Below, piece by piece: positions 3,523 to 63,364 of a DNA stretch of 64,000 nucleotides. The position numbers were made by a program, and so were the translations under genes. The stretch comes from Nostoc commune NIES-4072. GTDB lineage: Bacteria > Cyanobacteriota > Cyanobacteriia > Cyanobacteriales > Nostocaceae. Where the stretch lies: the NCBI RefSeq assembly GCF_003113895.1, contig NZ_BDUD01000001.1, positions 7,010,559-7,074,558 of the forward strand, read 5' to 3'. A model generated the notes under the pieces. The model made no database searches. It saw only the letters and a program-made list of their open reading frames with translations, and was not told the origin of the DNA. Each line of letters opens with the position of its first letter. The stretch's first letter is position 1.

Positions 3523-3834
3523 TTATCGAGCATTGCGTTCACAAACTAAGACTTCTGCTACAATATCCGGCACATTTACAAAGTCCGTAAATCCTTCAGA
3601 GCCACGGATTGGTGATATAAATGTGTAGTTTGGATCACACACTCCATTGTCATATACTTGAATAAACCATCTATCGGGAAACCCTTCTACACCTAATTCT
3701 ACAGTGTACCAACTCTCGCCAATCAGACGAGAGTTATATATTGTAAACCATTCCCGATTCTCTTCTGATATATTCCAATCTGCCATCAGCAGTTCTAAAG
3801 CTATTTGTCCCGCATCCGTTGAAGTCAACAGCAT
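3523..3834 (-). CDS. Hypothetical protein, 103 aa
   Basis: Not recognised. A small soluble acidic protein (start MLLTSTDAGQIALELL, aromatic-rich middle with WYTVELG and RWFIQVYDNG, which reads as antiparallel beta strands). Its ATG lies two bases after the stop of the upstream gene (end 3837), and the AAGGAG ribosome binding site is formed by the last codons of that gene, so the two are translationally coupled. Last of three genes transcribed together from 4576 downwards. The fold resembles small immunity or effector-associated proteins only superficially; no function is claimed. Confidence 0.65.
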   Translation of the reverse strand: MLLTSTDAGQIALELLMADWNISEENREWFTIYNSRLIGESWYTVELGVEGFPDRWFIQVYDNGVCDPNYTFISPIRGSEGFTDFVNVPDIVAEVLVCERNAR

Positions 3835-3836
3835 TT

Positions 3837-4178
3837 TTACTCCTTATTTGCGGCTTCAGTATTTGCAACTTCAGGATTGGAAACTTCCGGGTATAAACCC
3901 AGTTCTTTAGCTAGCTCACGCGCTACAAAAAATAAAAACTTAGCGCCATCTTGATTGCCTTCATGGGCAAACATAGTTGCTACTTGTAACATTGTCTCCA
4001 CAAATCCAGAATCAATCAATTCTGGCTTACTTTCCAAAACTTCTGGTTCCTGACCATTAGGACATTTGAGTAGCTCATCAATCAGATTGAAATATAGTTG
4101 TTGGCGTTGCTCTGACATAGTAATTTTGTTGATTTTAGTGAGTTGTGAATTAGTTACTGTTCGATACTGTGCTGCCAT
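3837..4178 (-). CDS. Hypothetical helical protein, about 94-113 aa
   Basis: The residues from the internal MSEQRQQLYFNLIDELL onward (ATG at 4118) resemble a helical domain that, in Nostoc-type cyanobacteria, is often found at the N-terminus of CHAT or TPR proteins; here it stands alone. The longer start at 4178 overlaps the upstream gene by 25 bases and has a GGAAAGG motif close in front, whereas the 4118 start fits the family better but lacks a clear ribosome site. The C-terminus (PEVSNPEVANTEAANKE) is a low-complexity acidic tail. Middle gene of a three-gene unit with a two-TM protein upstream and a 103-aa protein downstream. Confidence 0.6.
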   Translation of the reverse strand: MAAQYRTVTNSQLTKINKITMSEQRQQLYFNLIDELLKCPNGQEPEVLESKPELIDSGFVETMLQVATMFAHEGNQDGAKFLFFVARELAKELGLYPEVSNPEVANTEAANKE

Positions 4179-5686: not shown

Positions 5687-6646
5687 ATGCGGATTGCTCA
5701 AGACATAACAGAACTGATTGGACGAACTCCTTTAGTTCAACTGAACAAGATTCCTCAAGCTGAGGGAGTAGTAGCAAGGATAGTTGTCAAATTAGAAGGG
5801 ATGAACCCAGCAGCTTCGGTGAAAGACCGCATTGGCTTGAGTATGGTACTTTCAGCAGAAGCTGCTGGCTCAATTTCCCCTGGAAAAACCATTTTAGTTG
5901 AGCCTACCTCTGGTAATACAGGTATTGCTCTAGCGATGGTAGCAGCAGCGCGTGGCTATCGTTTGATTTTGACAATGCCAGAAACAATGAGCCAAGAACG
6001 ACGGGCCATGCTCAGGGCTTATGGTGCTTCTTTGGAGTTAACACCAGGCGTTGAGGGAATGCGGGGAGCTATTCGCAAAGCCGAAGAAATTGTGGCTAAT
6101 ACTCCTGATGCTTTTATGCTGCAACAGTTCCGCAACCCTGCTAATCCCAAGGTTCACCAGGAAACCACCGCAGAAGAAATTTGGACAGATACAGACGGGG
6201 AAGTAGATATTGTCATTGCTGGGGTAGGTACTGGTGGAACGATTACTGGGGTTGCAGAAGTACTCAAACAGCGTAAGAAGACTTTTAAAGCGATCGCAGT
6301 TGAACCCAGCAACAGCCCAGTTCTCTCCGGCGGTGAAGCCGGGCCACACAAAATTCAAGGTATTGGTGCCGGATTTATCCCCGATGTTCTCCGCCTAGAA
6401 TTGGTTGATGAAGTAATTAGAGTCAGCGATGAACAAGCGATCGCTTATGGACGACGTTTAGCAAAAGAAGAAGGCTTATTATCTGGCATATCCTCTGGTG
6501 CAGCTTTGTGCGCTGCAATTCAAGTAGGTAAACGTCCAGAAAATGCCGGGCGGTTAATCGTGATGATTCAGCCTTCTTTTGGCGAACGTTATCTCAGCAC
6601 CCCCATGTTTCAAGATTTGTCCTTAGAAACTGCTAGCGTGCGTTAA
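5687..6646 (+). CDS. cysK: Cysteine synthase A (O-acetylserine sulfhydrylase)
   Basis: Makes L-cysteine from O-acetylserine and sulfide in the cytoplasm using pyridoxal phosphate. The 319-residue length is normal. The PLP lysine is in [10 protein letters not shown] (about K46), followed by the phosphate- and substrate-binding [16 protein letters not shown] loop and [20 protein letters not shown] near the C-terminus is the usual active-site serine region. The start at 5687 has AGGAG upstream. It stands alone, followed by a hairpin terminator. Cyanobacteria often carry several cysK paralogues, so this may be one isoform; cystathionine beta-synthase-like activity is unlikely at this length. Confidence 0.95.
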
Positions 6647-15254: not shown

Positions 15255-15473
15255 TGTTTTTTATTCTTGCAATATTAAGCATACTTACTATGCCCATCCA
15301 AGTTTAGCGTTGTAACATTTGTGACAAAACTCAGTATAGTTTTACGATATGTTACAAAGATAACTCTTAAGTGAGATTGTCTTGGGGATGTTGGTTGATT
15401 GACAGTATAGACATTTTGGTTTTCCACCCTAGCGAATTTGCTCAAGTAGAGTAAGGCATTCTTTGTGATTTCG

Positions 15474-53995: not shown

Positions 53996-55585
53996 TTAAG
54001 TCATATTTAGCACTTTTCTTAAAAGTACTTGGTCTTCTAATTTGGCTTTTAAACGGCCATTTTCGATATCTCGAATCCAGCTTTGGCTTTTACCTGTAAG
54101 CTTTGCCAATTCTCTTTGAGAGAGATTCAAATTTTTTCGCGCCTGTAAAATCTGTTCACCCAGCAATTCGTTTGTAGCTTTAGGCTTCCTTTTGGCTTTA
54201 GCAGTTCTTGTTTTCTTTTTCTCTGATTCTGAAATTTGCTGTTCCCATTCTGGTGGGAGTTCAAAAGCCAAAATCCGCGCATTCATTAAGAGATTCCATT
54301 TACCACGGGGGCCTGTGTCTGTGAGGCGGGTTTCAGCACCACCGTCATTAGTCCAAAATTCTAATGCTTCATCTGGATCTTCTGGAAGATCAACTAACTT
54401 CGCCCATAAAGGTTGAATTTCTGGCGGGTAGGTAACCGGATCGAAAAGTGGTTTCATTCCATAGTGATTGAGAATTTCTAAGTCGCTTTCAAAAGTTCGC
54501 AGCAGACGTTTGCGTTCTTCTCGTTGTCTGGATGCAAGGGCAACTTTTTCTTCTCCGTAAGCAATCCGCAGCAAGGTAGGAATAGTAATACGTTGTTCCT
54601 TGCCCATTTTGGTTTTAAACAGCAACCACAGCATTAATCGGACTGCGCCTTCATGTTGCTGCCAAATGCTCATAACTGTAGTTAGCAGCGTTTTCGGAAG
54701 ACTACCGTATTGATAGAATGCGGTTCGCTGTTTACATGCTTGCTTATTTAAGAAATATTGTGCCCATAAACCTGCTTTTACTTTAAAAGTTAGCCCAATA
54801 AGATATTTGCATCCAAGATTGTCTTCTTGAAAGTGGTGCTGAATATCTACTAAGTGCCATAAGCGGCTACCTGTAATAGAAAATCCGTTAATTCGACCTT
54901 GTTGAGGCCAGTCAATGGAGATAAGCAGGGAGCAAGCTTGCTGGACAAGATTTTTCATTAAAGCTAGTTTGGCAGCTTTGCTTAAATCTTTGCGTTTCTC
55001 CATCCCCAAATATTTCTCAATTTGTCGCTCATCGATCGCAAATTCTTGCTCCCAAGGTTGCTCTAAAGCTGTAGCATAAGCTGCAAAAATTAGATGTATG
55101 CAAGCGGCTCTGATGTCAAGCCCCTCAATTGCTGCTAAATCTATGGCCTTGTCGTTAACTTTGAATGGATCTTGGATGTGAAAAGCGATCGCACCTCGTC
55201 CCTGATTGATTTGTCGGCTGTAACTTATATAGCCTTCTTCATCGGTTTCCCAATGTAGCGATGTACGTTGTGCTAGTACATTACAAGCTTCCCAAATAGC
55301 GATCGCTGAAGCAAATGGATTATTCTTGCCGTTAGAAAACAAGTCTAAACTGCTAGCATCTCTTGGTTCTATTTTGCATCTCCCTTTTTTTGACTGCCAA
55401 GGAATCGGAGAATTTGTTGGACAAGCTATTACACATTGCGGTTCTGAATAATAACCCTCACAATTATTACAAAGACCAGGATCAATCCAGTATTCATTGT
55501 CTTCTATTCTGATTGCACCCGTAGGACATTGGGGGCGGCAGTTGTCACATCCAACGCAACTGTTGTTAGGAATTGTATAAGGCAT
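53996..55585 (-). CDS. cnfR: CnfR/PatB, iron-sulfur nif transcription activator
   Basis: 529 residues from MPYTIPNNSC (ATG 55585; a longer reading from 55657 adds 24 unlikely residues). The N-terminus holds two ferredoxin-type motifs, CVGCDNCRPQCPTGAI and CNNCEGYYSEPQCVIACP, and the C-terminus an XRE-type helix-turn-helix (LNLSQRELAKLTGKSQSWIRDIEN). Length, start and layout match PatB/CnfR of heterocystous cyanobacteria, which senses oxygen through its clusters and turns on nif and related genes in heterocysts. From memory, in Nostoc PCC 7120 patB also lies next to the cox2 genes, as here. The fdxB gene lies divergently upstream. Confidence 0.92.
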   Translation of the reverse strand: MPYTIPNNSCVGCDNCRPQCPTGAIRIEDNEYWIDPGLCNNCEGYYSEPQCVIACPTNSPIPWQSKKGRCKIEPRDASSLDLFSNGKNNPFASAIAIWEACNVLAQRTSLHWETDEEGYISYSRQINQGRGAIAFHIQDPFKVNDKAIDLAAIEGLDIRAACIHLIFAAYATALEQPWEQEFAIDERQIEKYLGMEKRKDLSKAAKLALMKNLVQQACSLLISIDWPQQGRINGFSITGSRLWHLVDIQHHFQEDNLGCKYLIGLTFKVKAGLWAQYFLNKQACKQRTAFYQYGSLPKTLLTTVMSIWQQHEGAVRLMLWLLFKTKMGKEQRITIPTLLRIAYGEEKVALASRQREERKRLLRTFESDLEILNHYGMKPLFDPVTYPPEIQPLWAKLVDLPEDPDEALEFWTNDGGAETRLTDTGPRGKWNLLMNARILAFELPPEWEQQISESEKKKTRTAKAKRKPKATNELLGEQILQARKNLNLSQRELAKLTGKSQSWIRDIENGRLKAKLEDQVLLRKVLNMT

Positions 55586-56494
55586 AAGGCTCTTTTCCCA
55601 CTCTAATCGTTGAGATGTCTGGCTCAGGTCTCCCCTGGATGAGTCCTGTTTATTCATGACTCGCTACCACATATCTTTATGGCGAGAATAATTTTTTCTC
55701 ACCATACTCACTCCCCACATCCATATTTTGAGTTTGCATCCAATTGGAAGCTATTTAAGGCTTTAAAACCGAGCCGGATAAAACTTATTTATTAACTATA
55801 CATTTCATAAAAATAATGATTAATTTGTTTGTATCGAGCTTAAAGAAAATCTTAATATTTGTTGAAATTCTACCTCAATGAACATTTTACCTTTACCCAT
55901 AAAGTGCTTTTAGAAAACATTTAAGCTTGTTGTAATTACATTTCATCTGATTTATTACTGATTTTAATATTTAATGCATGATGATATTCTGCTACCAAGT
56001 TTACAGTTCCTTCATAATTAACTTTACTTTCTTGATGTAAAAGAATAATCTCTTTTGTCATCATTTATCTAAATAGATTAATTAAAGGAAAATCAAAATT
56101 GTTGGCTTTTAAAATACATATTGCATATATAAAAATGTAACTCATGAACATTTATTTTTGTATCAATCACTACTGTTTTGATATATTTATCTGACTAATC
56201 AAAAAATACTTGAAAAAGAATATCATCATTTTTATAGAGATATTTGTATCTTGTGGAAATAATAGTTATCCATACACAGTAGTAATTAGATACTTTAGCT
56301 CCCTACAACTAGACAATTATTATCAATAATCCTTATCTATAATTTGAAATTAAAAACAATGTAATTTTGTGTTCAAAGTCATCGGAATTTGATGACTAAA
56401 AAGTAATTTTTGAATATAAACGAATAAAAGATTAGGATAATATGATGATTAATGCACAAACAGATTGAAAGGCAAAATTGCCGAAGGATTATTC
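55586..56494. other. AT-rich 0.9-kb divergent cnfR/fdxB control region
   Basis: A GTA-N9-TAC pair at about 56278-56292 is one base too wide for a standard NtcA site. A 42-aa minus-strand ORF (55936-56064, MMTKEIILLHQESK...) is open but has no ribosome site. The region otherwise lacks repeats, in contrast to most gaps here, and may hold the CnfR/NtcA regulatory targets. Confidence 0.5.
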
Positions 56495-56788
56495 ATGGCA
56501 CAGCTAACAGGTTTGACATTTGGCGGTAAGGCTTGGACACCAAAATTCGCTCAAGAAATTGACAAGGACAAATGTATCGGTTGTGGCAGATGCGTTAAAG
56601 TATGCGGTTACAATGTTTTGGGTTTGAAGGCGCTCAATGAAGAAGGCGAATTTGTAGATGATGAAGATGATGATGAAATTGAACGCAAAGTAATGGCAGT
56701 TACTTCTCCAGAAAACTGTATTGGTTGTGAAGCGTGTTCACGGATTTGCCCCAAAAATTGCTACACCCATGTTGCATTAAACAACTAA
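56495..56788 (+). CDS. fdxB: Ferredoxin III, nif-specific
   Basis: 97 residues from [11 protein letters not shown] (AAGGA before). Two clusters: [15 protein letters not shown] and [15 protein letters not shown] (C-x2-C-x2-C-x3-C with a modified first motif, Gly instead of Pro), separated by an acidic loop. This is the nif-linked FdxB type that carries electrons in nitrogen-fixing cells. Divergent from cnfR and ahead of the cox operon. Confidence 0.9.
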
Positions 56789-57084
56789 GGTTTTTGAAGT
56801 TAGTCAAAATTGTTGTTCATTCAAGGAGGCACTGTTTGTATAAAGCGCAAATGTGCTAGGCAAGGTAACTTGAGGGGGATATTAAATATTTACTGTAACT
56901 AATAGAAAGTTCACAGTAAACAAATCCGTAAATCGCAAAATGTCAGTTATTAACAAAATTAAACTTGCTGCTAATATAGCCTAATCAATATTAGGTCTAA
57001 CAGTGCCCTCTTGGAACAACTAGCTTTTCTGGAAGCAGGGGGCTACCTTTTTCATAGGAGTTGAAATATAATTTGTAAGTTTCT

Positions 57085-57128
57085 GGGGGAAAGATATGGA
57101 AAAAATCTGGAAGTTTCCCCCATTTTTT
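57085..57128 (+). terminator. Intrinsic terminator / attenuator ahead of coxB
   Basis: GGGGGAAA/TTTCCCCC stem with a 21-base loop, then ATTTTTT. It is 300 nt after fdxB and 180 nt before coxB. Confidence 0.7.
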
Positions 57129-57149
57129 ATGGCTGCACGTTAGAAAGTT

Positions 57150-57290
57150 AATAAGTGAAAAGGGAATAGGGAATGGGGAATGGGGAATGGGGAATAGGGA
57201 ATAAATAACAATGCCCAATTACCAATTACCAATTACCAATCCCCAATCCCCAATCCCCAGTACCCAATACCCAGTACCTATAAAAGACTG
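57150..57290. repeat. GGGGAAT / CCCCAAT heptamer arrays
   Basis: GGGGAAT units then ACCAATT, CCCCAAT and CCCAGTA units immediately upstream of coxB. Confidence 0.88.
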
Positions 57291-57308
57291 TTTACACAGG
57301 TAGCATGT

Positions 57309-58352
57309 ATGCAACAAGTTCCTGTTTCACTATGGACTCTGGTTGCTGGGATAGTAGTTACAGCAATCAGTATTTGGATTGGTCAGAATCACACTTTGAT
57401 GCCGGTGCAAGCATCGTTACAAGCGCCTTTGGTAGACGGTTTTTTTAACGTCATGTTTACCATTGCGATCGCACTCTTCTTAGTGGTAGAAGGAACAATT
57501 GTACTTTTTTTGATTCAGTTTCGTCGCCGTCGCGGTGATGATAGTGATGGTGTGCGAGTAGAAGGCAACGTTCCCTTAGAAATCTTTTGGACAGCAATCC
57601 CAACAGTGATTGTTCTCGGCTTGGGCATTTACAGTGTAGATGTTTTTAACCGAATGGGCGGCTTTGAGCCTGCGGGTCATCCTCATTCAGCAGCTCATGT
57701 TGCTCATATACCGGGGAGTGCTTTGGCAGCCACATTAAGCGATACTGAAGCAACAACTGCCCCAGCAATAGCCCCAACAATTGGTATTGGCGCGTCTCCC
57801 AAAAACCTAGATAAACCAGCCGACTTAGTTGTTGATGTCAAAGGCATACAGTACGCCTGGTTATTTAATTACCCTGATAGTGGCATTACCTCTGGGGAAT
57901 TACACATACCCGTTGGTGCTGATGTACAACTCAACCTTTCAGCACAAGATGTAATTCATTCATTCTGGGTGCCAAACTTCCGCTTGAAACAAGATGCACT
58001 TCCCGGTATCCCTACCGAACTACGATTTGTCGCCACTAAACCAGGTACATATCCCGTAGTTTGTGCTGAATTGTGCGGTGGTTATCACGGTTCAATGCGG
58101 ACACAAGTAATTGTCCACACACCAGAAGAATATAATAACTGGCGGACAGAAAACCAGATTGCTCAACAGCAAAATTTAAATCAAGTCGTTGCAGTGAGCG
58201 AGTCCCCGTCTTGGCGGTTTCCGGCGATGGGGAACTCGCGAACCCAAAGGGTTAATCCAGCCGACTTATCAACATCAGAGTTTCTCGCACCCCACACCCA
58301 TGATATGGGAATTAGTGCAGCAACTCTACAGTCATTGGTCATTGGTCATTAG
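57309..58352 (+). CDS. coxB: Cytochrome c oxidase subunit II
   Basis: 347 residues. Two N-terminal TM helices, then the CuA domain with HSFWVPNFRLKQD (His) and CAELCGGYHGSM (two Cys, Glu, His, Met), so the CuA site is complete and the enzyme is a cytochrome c, not quinol, oxidase. The last residues QSLVIGH are coded by a heptamer-repeat stretch (see findings). First of coxBAC; adjacent to cnfR/fdxB, which suits the heterocyst-specific Cox2 oxidase that lowers oxygen for nitrogenase. Confidence 0.93.
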   Translation: MQQVPVSLWTLVAGIVVTAISIWIGQNHTLMPVQASLQAPLVDGFFNVMFTIAIALFLVVEGTIVLFLIQFRRRRGDDSDGVRVEGNVPLEIFWTAIPTVIVLGLGIYSVDVFNRMGGFEPAGHPHSAAHVAHIPGSALAATLSDTEATTAPAIAPTIGIGASPKNLDKPADLVVDVKGIQYAWLFNYPDSGITSGELHIPVGADVQLNLSAQDVIHSFWVPNFRLKQDALPGIPTELRFVATKPGTYPVVCAELCGGYHGSMRTQVIVHTPEEYNNWRTENQIAQQQNLNQVVAVSESPSWRFPAMGNSRTQRVNPADLSTSEFLAPHTHDMGISAATLQSLVIGH

Positions 58353-58518
58353 TCAAACGATTTTGGATTTTAGATTTGCGATTTTAGATTGGTTCCGCTA
58401 CGCCACTGGGGGATAAATCAAAAAATTATTTTAATCCAAAATCCAAAATTGCCCGATCAAGAGTCACATTTAATTGCTTTGAACATTTGACCCTGGTCTT
58501 TGCATAAGGGTAAAAAAT

Positions 58519-60207
58519 ATGACGCAGGTAGAATTTCCCCGGAATACTCCACCAGAAGAAAAGAAACCGGAAATGGTGGCTGGCCACACCTCCCATCCGA
58601 AGGCGTGGAAATGGCAAGACTATTTTACATTTAATGTTGACCACAAGGTTATTGGTATCCAATACCTAGTGACGGCGTTTGTGTTCTATCTCATCGGTGG
58701 ACTGATGGCTGTTGCTCTGCGTGTCGAATTAGCAACACCAGATGCAGACGTACTCGACCCCAATCTGTATAACGCTTTCATGACCAATCACGGGACGATT
58801 ATGATCTTCCTGTGGATTGTTCCTAGCGCCATTGGGGGATTTGGTAACTATTTGGTGCCGTTGATGGTTGGTGCTAGGGATATGGCTTTCCCGAAGCTGA
58901 ACGCGATCGCCTTTTGGTTAAATCCCCCAGCCGGTGCGCTGATTTTAGGTAGTTTCATTTTTGGCGGTTCGCAATCTGGTTGGACAGCTTACCCACCTTT
59001 GAGCTTAGTGACAGCACCAATCGCTCAAAGTATGTGGATACTTGCGATCGTCTTAGTGGGAACTTCTTCAATTTTGGGTTCACTGAACTTTGTGATCACC
59101 ATTTTGATGATGAAAGTTCCTAGCATGAAATGGGATCAAGTGCCCCTATTTTGCTGGGCAATCTTGGCAACCTCGTTGCTGGCGCTTCTCTCTACACCTG
59201 TATTAGCAGCCGGTTTAGTTCTACTGTTGTTTGACCTCAACTTTGGCACTTCCTTCTTCAAACCAGATGCAGGCGGTAATGTTGTAATTTATCAACACTT
59301 ATTCTGGTTTTATTCTCACCCGGCAGTATATTTAATGATTCTGCCCATTTTCGGCATCATGTCGGAGGTAATACCAGTTCACTCGCGTAAGCCAATCTTT
59401 GGTTATAAAGCGATCGCTTACTCTAGTGTAGCCATCTGCGTTGTTGGTTTGTTCGTCTGGGTACACCACATGTTCACCAGTGGCACACCCGGCTGGATGC
59501 GGATGTTCTTCACTATCTCCACTCTTATAGTTGCAGTTCCCACTGGCGTGAAAATTTTTGCTTGGGTTGCTACCCTCTGGGGTGGTAAAATCCGCTTCAC
59601 AGGTGCGATGCTTTTCGCCATTGGTTTGTTGTCCATGTTTGTCATGGGCGGCTTAAGTGGTGTGACGATGGGAACAGCCCCCTTTGATGTTCATGTCCAC
59701 GACACATATTATGTTGTCGGACATTTCCATTACGTTCTATTTGGTGGTTCCGTGTTTGGTATCTACGCAGGTATTTATCACTGGTTCCCCAAAATGACCG
59801 GACGAATGCTGAATGAAAGCTTGGCACGCATTCACTTTGCCCTTACCTTCATCGGTACTAATCTGACCTTTTTACCCATGCACGAGTTGGGCTTAAAAGG
59901 AATGCCGCGAAGAGTGGCAATGTATGACCCCCAATTTATCGACCTGAATCAAATTTGTACCTTTGGTTCATTTGTTTTGGCGATATCGGTAATTCCTTTC
60001 ACCATCAACATGATCTACAGTTGGCTGAAAGGGCCTTTGGCTGGTGATAATCCTTGGCAAGGTTTGACCTTAGAATGGACAACTAGCTCACCACCTGCAA
60101 TTGAAAACTGGGAAGTGTTGCCGGTTGTGACTCATGGCCCTTATGACTACGGTCATGATAATACTCTTGAAATACAGCCATCTGCAACACCGTCAGCTAA
60201 TGCTTAG
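58519..60207 (+). CDS. coxA: Cytochrome c oxidase subunit I
   Basis: 562 residues, 12 TM helices. Haem-copper ligands are visible: NHGTIMIFLW (low-spin haem His), FYSHPAVYLMILP (Cu-B His and cross-linked Tyr), WVHHMFTSG (two Cu-B His), and VVGHFHYV (haem a3/low-spin His). It pumps protons and reduces oxygen to water in the thylakoid or cytoplasmic membrane. It is 166 bp after coxB, a gap containing repeat DNA. Confidence 0.95.
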   Translation: MTQVEFPRNTPPEEKKPEMVAGHTSHPKAWKWQDYFTFNVDHKVIGIQYLVTAFVFYLIGGLMAVALRVELATPDADVLDPNLYNAFMTNHGTIMIFLWIVPSAIGGFGNYLVPLMVGARDMAFPKLNAIAFWLNPPAGALILGSFIFGGSQSGWTAYPPLSLVTAPIAQSMWILAIVLVGTSSILGSLNFVITILMMKVPSMKWDQVPLFCWAILATSLLALLSTPVLAAGLVLLLFDLNFGTSFFKPDAGGNVVIYQHLFWFYSHPAVYLMILPIFGIMSEVIPVHSRKPIFGYKAIAYSSVAICVVGLFVWVHHMFTSGTPGWMRMFFTISTLIVAVPTGVKIFAWVATLWGGKIRFTGAMLFAIGLLSMFVMGGLSGVTMGTAPFDVHVHDTYYVVGHFHYVLFGGSVFGIYAGIYHWFPKMTGRMLNESLARIHFALTFIGTNLTFLPMHELGLKGMPRRVAMYDPQFIDLNQICTFGSFVLAISVIPFTINMIYSWLKGPLAGDNPWQGLTLEWTTSSPPAIENWEVLPVVTHGPYDYGHDNTLEIQPSATPSANA

Positions 60208-60279
60208 GTAGTAAAGTGAGGAATGCGATCGCTCTCAAGCTGACTACAATTTCTAGTAATTTGATTTGAGAACTTGAAA

Positions 60280-60531
60280 CTTCAGCCTCAGAACTCGAAA
60301 GGCCGAGTTCAGAACTCGGAACTTCAGCCTCAGAACTCGAAAGGCCGAGTTCAGAACTCGGAACTTCAGCCTCAGAACTCGAAAGGCCGAGTTCAGAACT
60401 CGGAACTTCAGCCTCAGAACTCGAAAGGCCGAGTTCGGAACTCGGAACTTCAGCCTCAGAACTCGAAAGGCCGAGTTCGGAACTCGGAACTTCAGCCTCA
60501 GAACTCGAAAGGCCGAGTTCGGAACTCGGAA
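60280..60531. repeat. Six tandem 42-bp repeats between coxA and coxC
   Basis: Unit: CTTCAGCCTCAGAACTCG + AAAGGCCGAGTTC(A/G) + GAACTCGGAA. Copies 1-3 have A, copies 4-6 have G at one position; otherwise identical. Each unit holds two overlapping palindromes, GAACTCG/CGAGTTC around AAAGGC, and CCGAGTTC-N-GAACTCGG. The length is a multiple of three, which opens frames on both strands, but these are repeat artefacts. The gap of 470 bp holds nothing else. Confidence 0.95.
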
Positions 60532-60677
60532 CTTGGAATTTTGAGAATTCCTGAACAAGTGAAGAGTTGAGTTAAACAAGGATTTTGGATGAAGAATGAA
60601 ATATTTTGCCGCTTCAGACTTCATTCTTCATTCAAGCTTCCACAACAGACACAGTGGATAATATTGTCAAAAAATCT

Positions 60678-61277
60678 ATGACCATAGCTACAACCACAAG
60701 CGAAAATCACAATGCAGGACACGAAGAACATCCAGATTTAAGAGTTTGGGGATTGTTGACGTTCCTCGCTTCTGAATCCCTTATGTTTGGGGGATTTTTT
60801 GCCACTTATTTGTTTTTCCGGGGTACTACAGCAGTTTGGCCTCCAGAAGGAAGCGAAGTAGAACTACTCGTACCAACGATTAACACCATTATCCTGGTGT
60901 CTAGTAGTTTCGTCATTCACTTCGGTGATACGGCGATTAAAAAGAATAATGTCAAGGGAATGCAACTATGGTACGCAATTACCGCAATCATGGGGGCAAT
61001 TTTCTTAGGTGGTCAGGTTTATGAGTATTCAACATTAGGATACGGACTGACTACCAACGTCTTCGCTAACTGCTTTTATATCATGACAGGGTTCCACGGT
61101 TTGCACGTTTTTGTGGGACTGTTATTGATATTACGTGCATTGTGGCGATCGCGTCTTCCCGGTGAATATTCTGCAACCAATCATACTTTCATCGAAATGA
61201 CAGAAATTTACTGGCACTTCGTAGACATTATCTGGATTATTTTATTCACCTTGGTGTACGTTCTTACTTTGTTTTAA
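60678..61277 (+). CDS. coxC: Cytochrome c oxidase subunit III
   Basis: 199 residues from MTIATTTSENHN at 60678; an upstream in-frame ATG at 60606 lies in repeat-adjacent DNA and is unlikely. Five TM helices, WGLLTFLASESLMFGGFF (E conserved), and the C-terminal HTFIEMTEIYWHFVDIIW motif are typical of CoxC. Third gene of the oxidase operon. Confidence 0.92.
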   Translation: MTIATTTSENHNAGHEEHPDLRVWGLLTFLASESLMFGGFFATYLFFRGTTAVWPPEGSEVELLVPTINTIILVSSSFVIHFGDTAIKKNNVKGMQLWYAITAIMGAIFLGGQVYEYSTLGYGLTTNVFANCFYIMTGFHGLHVFVGLLLILRALWRSRLPGEYSATNHTFIEMTEIYWHFVDIIWIILFTLVYVLTLF

Positions 61278-61384
61278 ATTGGGCATGGGGCAGGGGGCAT
61301 TGGGCATTGGGCATTAATTATTCTGTCTCACTCCCTCATCTTCCCCAATCCCCAGTCCCTAGTCCCCAATCCCCAGTGACCAAT

Positions 61385-61870
61385 ATGCAAGCTAATACAA
61401 ACCAATTCTCATGGTTCCAGGTTCCAGAGGACATCAAAAATCTATTAATTTTAGCTGCACAAACCTGGGAGAACACATCAGAATCGGAAAAATATATTCA
61501 ACAAGCTTTAGCCAAAACTGGTGAAAATACAGATGTATTGGTAGCAGCATATAGATTTTTCTATTATAAAAATAATTATTCTCTTGCATTACAAACAACA
61601 ACTAAATTATTAGATAAAATTAAAGAAATAGAAAACTTGCCTGATGACTGGGAGCAACTTAAGCCGATATTAGTCAATCGCAAAGAAGACCCACAAATTC
61701 GATTGTACTTAAATGCTTATGCTGCTTCTGGATTAGTACTAGCAAAGTTAGGAGCAATTGAGCAAGCAAAAGAAATCAGCGCCAAAGTCAAAGAGATAGA
61801 CGAAAAGCATGATTTTGGAGCCGGAATTCTTCTGGATATTTTGACACGTCCAGCAGAAGAAGATGATTAA
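61385..61870 (+). CDS. Helical TPR-like protein, 161 aa
   Basis: Starts ATG 61385 within a heptamer array. All-helical: NLLILAAQTWENTSESEKYIQQALAK, VLVAAYRFFYYKNNYSLALQ, LYLNAYAASGLVLAKLGAIEQAKE, each resembling a TPR unit. Directly after coxC on the same strand, so it may assist the oxidase or nitrogenase apparatus. Not otherwise recognised. Confidence 0.75.
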   Translation: MQANTNQFSWFQVPEDIKNLLILAAQTWENTSESEKYIQQALAKTGENTDVLVAAYRFFYYKNNYSLALQTTTKLLDKIKEIENLPDDWEQLKPILVNRKEDPQIRLYLNAYAASGLVLAKLGAIEQAKEISAKVKEIDEKHDFGAGILLDILTRPAEEDD

Positions 61871-62200
61871 TTAGTCAATGCATATCTCGACAAGACGATG
61901 TGCGTTGTAGAGACGCGATTCATCGCGTCTGTAACGAGTGGGGAGACAAGGACACAAGGAGAATAACCCATGCCCCCTAATGCCCCATTCCCAATTCCCA
62001 ATGCCCTTTTGGTGAACAATCATGAACAATTGGTTATCTACCACATCATATTCCTCATACTCCCTATTAGGAGTAGCTACTGATAGCAACTCTATCATTC
62101 CTCCTATCACCATACCTACTAAACTTCCTGGAGGTAATAATATTCCTAATGTCTCTCCGATCATCATCATCCAATCTTCTCAGCTATCAATTTAAAAGTT
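61871..62200. other. Intergenic region with interspersed repeats
   Basis: Contains the AGACGCGATT-CATCGCGTCT palindrome (61911-61930), a GGGGCAT-type block and TTCCCAA repeats. A 99-aa minus-strand frame (61871-62170) passes through these repeats and is probably spurious. Confidence 0.45.
61911..61930. repeat. Palindrome AGACGCGATTCATCGCGTCT
   Basis: One-mismatch copy of the palindrome at 31619-31638. Confidence 0.8.
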
Positions 62201-62812
62201 ATGAAAGGTAAGGATTGGCTGCTAACGGGGGACGGTCATTATCAAGCCTGTAAAGCTGTAAGAGCATGGGATTTATTGAGAGAAAATTATCGCGTTTATC
62301 GGTTTTTAACTGAAATCGAAGATGTTCTCAATAGTGTGGACGATCAAACCAGTTGTCTGCCAGAAATCCGAATGCTCGTAAGGCGCTTAATAGTAAATTC
62401 CTACTGGGTGCGGAGTCAATATTTAGAGCCTTCGCCTAAAACGGGAACCTCTGTTTTACTCCTATACGATGAATTGGGTTTTCCGTTGACTGTGCAAACA
62501 GTAACATTTGCACCAGGAACTCGATCAACCATTCATAATCATGGGACGTGGGGAATCGTGGCGGTGTTAAAAGGTCAGGAAAAAAATACTTTTTGGCGAC
62601 GCACCCATAGCGCTGAAAATCTGGGCAAGATTGAACAGACAGGAGAGATAACTCTATTTCCAGGGGATATTATTAGCTTCACTCCTGATGCAATTCACAG
62701 TGTAGAAGCAATGGGTGATGAACCAACTGTGACTTTTAATATCTACGGCGAAACTGATCCGAGTGAGAGATTTGAGTTTGACCCGGTTAAGTGTAGTGCT
62801 AAAAACTTTTAG
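62201..62812 (+). CDS. Cysteine-dioxygenase-like cupin protein
   Basis: 203 residues. Cupin beta-barrel with the metal triad HNHGTW (His-x-His) and GIVAVLKGQEKNTFW, then FPGDIISFTPDAIHSVEAMG (third His). It fits the cysteine dioxygenase/thiol dioxygenase branch or a related metal-dependent enzyme that adds oxygen to a thiol. Sits between the cox operon and the nitrogenase-associated protein, so a link to sulfur or oxygen handling in heterocysts is possible. Substrate undetermined. Confidence 0.78.
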   Translation: MKGKDWLLTGDGHYQACKAVRAWDLLRENYRVYRFLTEIEDVLNSVDDQTSCLPEIRMLVRRLIVNSYWVRSQYLEPSPKTGTSVLLLYDELGFPLTVQTVTFAPGTRSTIHNHGTWGIVAVLKGQEKNTFWRRTHSAENLGKIEQTGEITLFPGDIISFTPDAIHSVEAMGDEPTVTFNIYGETDPSERFEFDPVKCSAKNF

Positions 62813-62825
62813 CATCACGCGGTAT

Positions 62826-62845
62826 GGGCGCACAATTGTGCGCCC
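62826..62845 (+). terminator. Perfect 20-bp palindrome GGGCGCACAATTGTGCGCCC
   Basis: 14 bp after the cupin stop, followed by TTAAAAAAG. A hairpin terminator or RNA stability element. Confidence 0.7.
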
Positions 62846-62881
62846 TTAAAAAAGAATAGTATTTTACAGCGAGGTAGTTGA

Positions 62882-63364
62882 ATGGCAAGAGTAATTTTCT
62901 ATAGTAAACCAGGCTGTAAAGGTGGTACTAAGCAAAAAGTTTTGCTTACAGCTGCTGGTCATGAGGTGATACCATACAATCTGCTAACAGAACCTTGGAC
63001 AGTTGAGCGGTTACGTTCATTTTTTGGCGATCGCCCCGTAGCCGAATGGTTTAATCCTTCCGCTCCAAAGGTAAAATCTGGTGAGGTAGTTCCTGAAAAA
63101 GTGGACGAACAAACCGCTTTGGCGCTGATGCTGAAAGAGCCGTTGTTGATTCGCCGTCCTTTATTAGAAGTAGGCGAACAGCGCGAGGTCGGATTTGATG
63201 TACAAAAGATTGATGCTTGGATTGGCTTACAAGCTGTGGATGAATCTTTACAAGAAATTAGCGACAATCTCATGAAGGAGAATTTGCAAGGCTGCTCTCA
63301 CGGTCATGGTCATCATCATGAACATGGTCATGAACACCAAAAGCAAGGCAACTGTAAACATTAG
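62882..63364 (+). CDS. Nitrogenase-associated ArsC/Spx-like protein with His-rich tail
   Basis: 160 residues. Thioredoxin-fold N-terminus ARVIFYSKPGCKGGTKQK with one Cys, and family elements LRSFFGDRPVAEWFN and LLIRRPLLEVG. This is the nitrogenase-associated protein family (NifO-type arsenate-reductase-like). The C-terminus GHGHHHEHGHEHQKQGN is very His-rich, a probable metal (nickel, zinc or molybdenum-independent) buffer. Together with cnfR and fdxB it strengthens the nif assignment of this block. Confidence 0.82.
   Translation: MARVIFYSKPGCKGGTKQKVLLTAAGHEVIPYNLLTEPWTVERLRSFFGDRPVAEWFNPSAPKVKSGEVVPEKVDEQTALALMLKEPLLIRRPLLEVGEQREVGFDVQKIDAWIGLQAVDESLQEISDNLMKENLQGCSHGHGHHHEHGHEHQKQGNCKH

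Follow-up and report, generated by a model that had tools for sequence, protein, structure and literature searches.

Genes of the locus

Near the right end of a 64,000-nucleotide stretch of Nostoc commune NIES-4072 DNA (the window; contig NZ_BDUD01000001.1, positions 7,010,559 to 7,074,558), positions 53996-63364 carry cnfR (patB), fdxB, coxBAC, a gene for a tetratricopeptide repeat (TPR)-like protein, a cupin gene, and a gene of the NifO family. These are all the genes that a first-pass annotation had named there, and open reading frames (ORFs), profile scores, and motifs confirm that list; its description of the region as a diazotrophy and oxygen-protection island is supported. The locus is a known heterocyst and diazotrophy island of Nostocales, not a new one, because the link of the all2512-alr2520 block to diazotrophy and nitrogen regulation was published in 2010 (PMC2821919). 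The island is ordinary; what is noteworthy is a substitution in the cupin, the nif-associated clade to which the cupin belongs, an overlooked small gene, and a neighbourhood of sulfur and molybdenum genes.

Three of the named genes form a triad on the plus strand. The TPR-like gene (61385-61870; alr2517 family) was assigned a likely ATG start at 61385, because the upstream TTG at 61307 reads through heptanucleotide repeats. No Pfam TPR model scores over its cut-off on the protein (TPR_8 is sub-threshold, at 17.0 versus 25.7). The predicted structure is a helix array (pLDDT 89.1) whose best matches among solved structures are TPR arrays, although these matches are weak (E 1.5e-3). The protein is proposed to act as a binding scaffold. 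The cupin gene (62201-62812; alr2518 family) encodes a protein with a predicted thiol-dioxygenase fold, and is preceded by a small gene (62022-62195, plus strand) of 57 codons with a Pro/Ser-rich product, the stop codon of which lies 5 nt before the cupin ATG. The NifO-family gene (62882-63364; alr2520 family) exceeds the cut-off of the nitrogenase-associated model TIGR01616 (171.8 versus 109 bits). Its PGC motif is found in 84 of 85 sequences, and a feature additional to that model, a His-rich tail with at least four His, in 83 of 85. The tail-less copies belong to two genomes outside the family of N. commune (G164 and G014), so any binding of metal by this tail would be confined to the group of N. 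commune.

The remaining genes serve regulation, electron transfer, and respiration. The nif activator gene cnfR (53996-55657, minus strand) encodes a ferredoxin-like N-terminus with eight 4Fe-4S cysteines (positions 34, 37, 40, 44, 63, 66, 75, and 79) and a C-terminal XRE-type helix-turn-helix domain (HTH_3, 34.6 bits versus a cut-off of 23). Oxygen-responsive activation of nif promoters has been described for CnfR/PatB relatives (PMC8510180). The nif-specific ferredoxin III gene fdxB (56495-56788, plus strand, from a likely ATG; its ORF is listed from 56465) scores 139.6 bits against 80.55 for TIGR02936. All three subunits of a CuA-type cytochrome c oxidase, together with the CuA ligands, are encoded on the plus strand: coxB, for subunit II (57309-58352; TIGR02866, 168.5 versus 147.7), with His ligands and the CuA box CAELCGGYHGSM at residue 252; coxA, for subunit I (58519-60207; TIGR02891, 689.7 versus 670.75); and coxC, for subunit III (60678-61277 from a likely ATG, ORF listed from 60606; COX3, 107.8 versus 23.8). 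The genome has four coxA-like genes, and the other three (in the set L175-L178) are 64, 56, and 55% identical to that of the window. The coxA-coxC gap holds a 42-bp tandem repeat of 6.3 copies with 98% match (window 60269-60534); in relatives, the length of this gap ranges from 53 to 724 bp. The cnfR-fdxB gap (55658-56464) contains 9-mers common to up to 58 of 63 named loci, compared with a shuffled maximum of 14, and the fdxB-coxB gap (56789-57308) contains 9-mers common to up to 50 of 65, compared with 8. These shared 9-mers are likely promoter elements, and no CnfR site was identified among them.

The block all2512 (patB)-asr2513-alr2514-2516 (coxBAC2)-alr2517-alr2518-alr2520 of Anabaena/Nostoc PCC 7120 has the same genes in the same order, where some of the correspondences between its locus tags and the window genes are presumed. 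The same order is found again in named Nostocales, which argues that the arrangement is not due to chance. The named genera are heterocyst-forming.

In PMC2821919, patB, alr2517, alr2518, and alr2520 are among 49 genes common to diazotrophic cyanobacteria; alr2518 is labelled a "cupin 2 domain-containing protein" and alr2520 a "nitrogenase-associated protein", and Table 5 gives alr2517, alr2518, and alr2520 asterisks for regulation upon nitrogen depletion. Lowered expression was reported for coxBAC2, alr2517, asr2523, and alr2524 in a sigE mutant (PMC4390870), and for patB, cox2, and alr2520 in a cse deletion mutant (PMC7065334). A co-occurrence study placed all2512 (patB) and asr2523 in its nitrogen-fixation module 9, whereas the passage of its text on that module does not name alr2517, alr2518, or alr2520 (PMC5862535). 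Literature searches that combined nitrogenase, cupin, cyanobacteria, and nif cluster found only PMC2821919, and a search for cysteine dioxygenase together with heterocyst found, at the level of titles, only apparently unrelated work.

Distribution and linkage in cyanobacteria

Co-occurrence was assessed in 291 genomes of the phylum. We counted 58 as carrying nifD (49 over the TIGR01282 cut-off, and nine genomes of the family of N. commune in which nifD matches in two pieces) and 232 as lacking it, and set aside G110 as ambiguous (partial nifD, 286 bits; cnfR, 440 bits). The counts and the associated Fisher p-values ignore phylogeny and shared ancestry; the Fisher tests used 233 non-nifD genomes, the cnfR test left the G110 match uncounted, and the test for the nif-associated cupin clade was post hoc. 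The TPR-like gene was found in 39 of the 58 nifD-positive genomes and in none of the 232 others. Likewise, NifO was found over cut-off in 46 of 58, FdxB over cut-off in 52 of 58, and cnfR at 270 bits or more in 57 of 58, each with no occurrence among the other 232. The nifD-positive genome without a cnfR match is G207. Of the 57 cnfR matches, four extend over only part of the protein: three span 39-42% of it, approximately residues 111-470 (G002, G060, and G201), and one spans residues 293-552 (G123). A damaged cnfR-like stretch (215 bits, six stops) in G112, which has no nifD, was left out of the count.

Linkage was examined in 80 of 145 named relatives, which may overlap in species with the sampled genomes. 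The TPR-like gene directly precedes the cupin gene in 74 of the 75 loci with enough flanking sequence, NifO directly follows the cupin gene in 79 of 79, coxBAC lies upstream of the triad in 66 of 74, and cnfR does so in 62 of 70. Within the sample, the triad is contiguous in all 32 genomes of the family of N. commune, so the absence of the cupin and TPR-like genes from most heterocyst formers, which the first-pass annotation had named as one part of what would refute its reading, does not hold.

Elsewhere, the parts recur in other combinations. The distant G164 has cysK-TPR-cupin-NifO-asr2523-like in a region with nifX, hesA, and fdxB downstream of nifD; G014 has cupin-NifO-asr2523-like between hesA/flavodoxin and modA/modBC. 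The TPR-like gene lies between fdxB and an asr2523-like gene in G099, and beside an asr2523-like gene, 1.8-3.3 kb from fdxB, in G141, G177, and G262. The cupin gene adjoins cnfR in G256, G151, and G123, and an asr2523-like gene in G166.

The first-pass annotation had described a compact island and proposed roles for the cupin and the His-tailed protein in heterocysts; that the unit is heterocyst-specific, or a single compact island, is not supported. Seven genomes outside the family of N. commune have the TPR-like gene and 12 have a cupin of the nif-associated clade; a heterocyst-only reading was rejected because parts of the triad occur there. The cox and cnfR parts can also separate from the triad. 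Judged by its distribution, the TPR-cupin-NifO triad is a diazotrophy module and not heterocyst-specific.

A small gene between the TPR-like and cupin genes

A conserved stretch between the TPR-like and cupin genes was at first read as a promoter element; that reading was rejected when the stretch proved to be a reading frame. The frame is present in 66 of 66 named loci in which this gap is at least 180 nt, and in 57 of them it terminates precisely 5 nt upstream of the cupin gene; it is missing from the 12 loci in which the gap is at most 131 nt. Among sampled genomes of the family of N. commune, it was found in 22 of 24 long gaps and none of eight short ones. By the same frame criteria, which were chosen after frames had been inspected, shuffled gaps gave 3.08 of 66 on average and never more than 8.

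The median ratio of nonsynonymous to synonymous substitution rates (dN/dS) of the small gene is 0.32, with 99.8% of pairs below 1 (425 pairs from 37 sequences starting MNNW, these pairs being related sequences and therefore non-independent). The other forward frames of the gap give 1.14 and 2.46; a reverse frame at 0.41 was rejected on account of 1150 stop-codon cells. The overlooked frame is, by these ratios, under selection. Its product has no Pfam match, its 25 relatives in the protein database are all unnamed or "hypothetical protein", and no locus tag for it was found in the papers searched on the PCC 7120 block. That it serves as a partner of the cupin, or that the TPR-like protein binds it as a ligand, is only a guess.

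It could be argued that the TPR-like, small, and cupin genes are only loosely connected with nitrogen fixation and are passengers of the useful nif and cox genes beside them. Nineteen of the 58 nifD-positive genomes indeed lack the TPR-like gene, 14 lack a nif-clade cupin, and loci with a short gap do not have the small gene. This explanation is nonetheless highly improbable: the TPR-like gene was not seen in any of the 232 genomes without nifD, the triad holds together where the cox and cnfR modules have separated from it and lies in the nif region of the distant G164, and the nitrogen regulation of alr2517, alr2518, and alr2520 is on record in Table 5 of PMC2821919.

The cupin and its clades

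The cupin scores just over the Cupin_2 cut-off (27.6 versus 27.2), and no match to the Pfam model CDO_I (PF05995) was found at E values up to 0.1. Its predicted fold is the cupin fold of the small-molecule thiol dioxygenases, which include cysteine dioxygenase (CDO), 3-mercaptopropionate dioxygenase (3MDO), and mercaptosuccinate dioxygenase (MSDO), so the first-pass description of the protein as thiol-dioxygenase-like stands. Identity is approximately 21-25% to the 3-mercaptopropionate dioxygenases of Azotobacter vinelandii (6xb9) and Pseudomonas (4tlf) and to mercaptosuccinate dioxygenase (8vni). The three iron-binding His (H112, H114, and H166) are invariant in 25 cupin sequences, and the HxHxxWG motif lacks its G in one of 151 (L132).

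The departure from known enzymes lies beside the active site, where 3-mercaptopropionate and mercaptosuccinate dioxygenases have Ser-His-Tyr (SHY) and the window cupin has Thr-Asn-Tyr. The Tyr is kept, and the His position in the nif-associated clade is Asn in 121, Gln in two, and His in one of 124 sequences; it is Asn in 27 of 27 outer-clade cupins. N-terminal cysteine oxidases (ADO and the plant enzymes, PCO) carry X-Asp-Leu in place of SHY (PMC10966181). That signature is absent from all 151 cupins, which have Thr/Ser, then Asn/Gln/His, then Tyr. The cupin resembles an iron-dependent, thiol-oxidising enzyme, one in which an unusual substitution flanks the active site. A second, distant (27%) thiol-dioxygenase-like cupin of the same genome (G000:C1:659793-660338; L163) has S-I-H-I-L at the S-x-H-x-Y site.

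A tree was built from 60 of 84 cupin sequences longer than 150 residues, with family rows thinned and partial or far rows omitted. A clade of 27 rows (support 100/100) unites all 20 nif-linked rows with seven unlinked ones, all from nifD-positive genomes; the nif-linked rows alone have weaker support (97/73). Outside this clade fall the cupins of 14 genomes that lack nifD, second cupin copies of diazotrophs, and cupins of five nifD-positive genomes (G105, G002, G060, G201, and G207), the last four of which have longer, lower-scoring nifD frames. The idea that any cupin of the family marks a diazotroph was rejected, because the outer-clade cupins of those 14 genomes without nifD are full-length, and the association with nif is limited to the 27-row clade. 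A nif-clade cupin was assigned to 44 of the 58 nifD-positive genomes: 32 in the family of N. commune, of which 13 were placed by the tree and the remainder through contiguity of the triad, plus 12 from outside that family. The comparison covers cyanobacterial cupins, and the search for cupin relatives the best 120 of 1120 matches.

Two other roles for the cupin deserve consideration. It might be an oxygen sensor, like the plant cysteine oxidases or ADO, that oxidises a protein or thiol signal upon oxygen leakage and thereby adjusts CnfR-dependent genes. The predicted thiol-dioxygenase fold, the higher KM for O2 predicted from Asn at the SHY His position, and the adjacency to cnfR in G256, G151, and G123 are consistent with this role, which we nevertheless consider unlikely. 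Alternatively, the protein might be catalytically dead and serve with NifO as an accessory that binds a metal or ligand (iron, molybdenum, or a cofactor precursor), given Asn at the SHY His position in nearly all members, the His-rich tail of NifO in the family of N. commune, and the modA and modBC genes beside cupin-NifO in G014. This too is improbable, as conservation in both clades extends to each iron-binding His, to the Tyr, and to the Arg region, beyond the needs of a plain binding protein, and molybdenum genes adjoin the cupin gene in one genome only.

Rearrangement downstream of NifO

In contrast to the PCC 7120 block, three genes of the window strain are separated from NifO by an inversion. 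These are a cysK-like gene (5687-6646, plus strand; 98% to cysK of L001; PALP, 239.7 bits), which follows NifO in many relatives, and small asr2523-like (3840-4121, minus strand) and alr2524-like (3526-3837, minus strand) genes, both 100% to L001. In two relatives (L003 and L030), sequence corresponding to window position 15366 and lower comes after NifO in reverse orientation, and in three more (L001, L005, and L006) the same is seen with parts missing. An inversion of approximately 48 kb (window 15367-63412), relative to these five Nostoc relatives, explains this displacement. Its right end lies about 50 bp past NifO. No long inverted repeat was detected at the ends, where the matches span 9-20 bases, with a best E of 0.33. 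The first-pass inventory, although right in each gene that it named, had omitted these three displaced genes and the small gene at 62022-62195.

The start of cysK falls no more than 1.5 kb past NifO in 41 of 74 named loci, and the listed cases below that distance have the two genes on opposite strands. Just past the inversion end (L171:2226-3842, from window 63667) is a gene for a 538-residue protein resembling a long TPR-repeat protein; it is followed by a probable cyanophycin synthetase and a cyanophycinase, named by eye from sequence.

Proposed functions

Gene identities, co-occurrence with nifD, gene order, the predicted fold and iron ligands of the cupin, and selection on the small frame are established at the level of sequence. 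With moderate confidence, we favour an interpretation in which this known Nostocales island consists of three separable modules, and in which the cupin is an Fe(II) thiol oxidase that adjusts supplies for the nitrogenase cofactor with CysK and NifO. The first module, cnfR and fdxB, would provide nif gene activation and electrons, and the second, coxBAC, would remove O2 by respiration. The third, comprising the TPR-like protein, the small protein, the cupin, and NifO, in many relatives accompanied by cysK and asr2523/alr2524, would be an accessory set of N2-fixing cyanobacteria. Within it, the cupin would bind Fe(II) through H112, H114, and H166 and oxidise a small carboxylate thiol by using Y182 and R190, the substrate most likely being cysteine or a cysteine-derived mercapto acid. 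In concert with CysK and NifO, it would tune the amounts of sulfur, thiol, and metal available for cofactor assembly. Because of Asn at the SHY His position, slow turnover and weak affinity for O2 are predicted, and the enzyme would therefore act mainly when O2 rises.

Several observations weigh against the role thus assigned to the cupin and the accessory set. Loss of the SHY His could mean that there is no catalysis. The nifD-positive genomes without a nif-clade cupin (14/58) or the TPR-like gene (19/58) imply that N2 fixation does not depend on either of them throughout the cyanobacteria. The nif-clade cupin is unlinked to nif genes in seven of 44 genomes, in the stretch seen, and cysK lies near NifO in only the 41 of 74 loci noted above, in opposite orientation. 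The sulfur and metal role of the cupin and NifO is argued from gene neighbourhood alone.

A bolder extension, which we judge very unlikely, is that the cupin is a natural His-to-Asn thiol-dioxygenase variant, adapted to low O2 affinity and acting as an O2-gated valve on the cysteine sulfur used in nitrogenase assembly, with the Pro/Ser-rich protein (48-58 residues) as its partner or as a peptide ligand of the TPR-like protein. If this were true, the O2-gated cupin, the small protein, and the TPR-like protein would constitute an unrecognised sulfur and oxygen control module of cyanobacterial N2 fixation.

Significance

This analysis delineates a nif-associated clade of cupins with a thiol-dioxygenase-like active site bearing an unusual substitution, a TPR-like gene seen only in nifD-positive genomes, and, within a studied block, a gene under selection for a small protein whose database entries are only unnamed or "hypothetical". 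If the details hold, these genes would be candidates for balancing O2, cysteine sulfur, and molybdenum supply in N2-fixing cells that make or respire oxygen.

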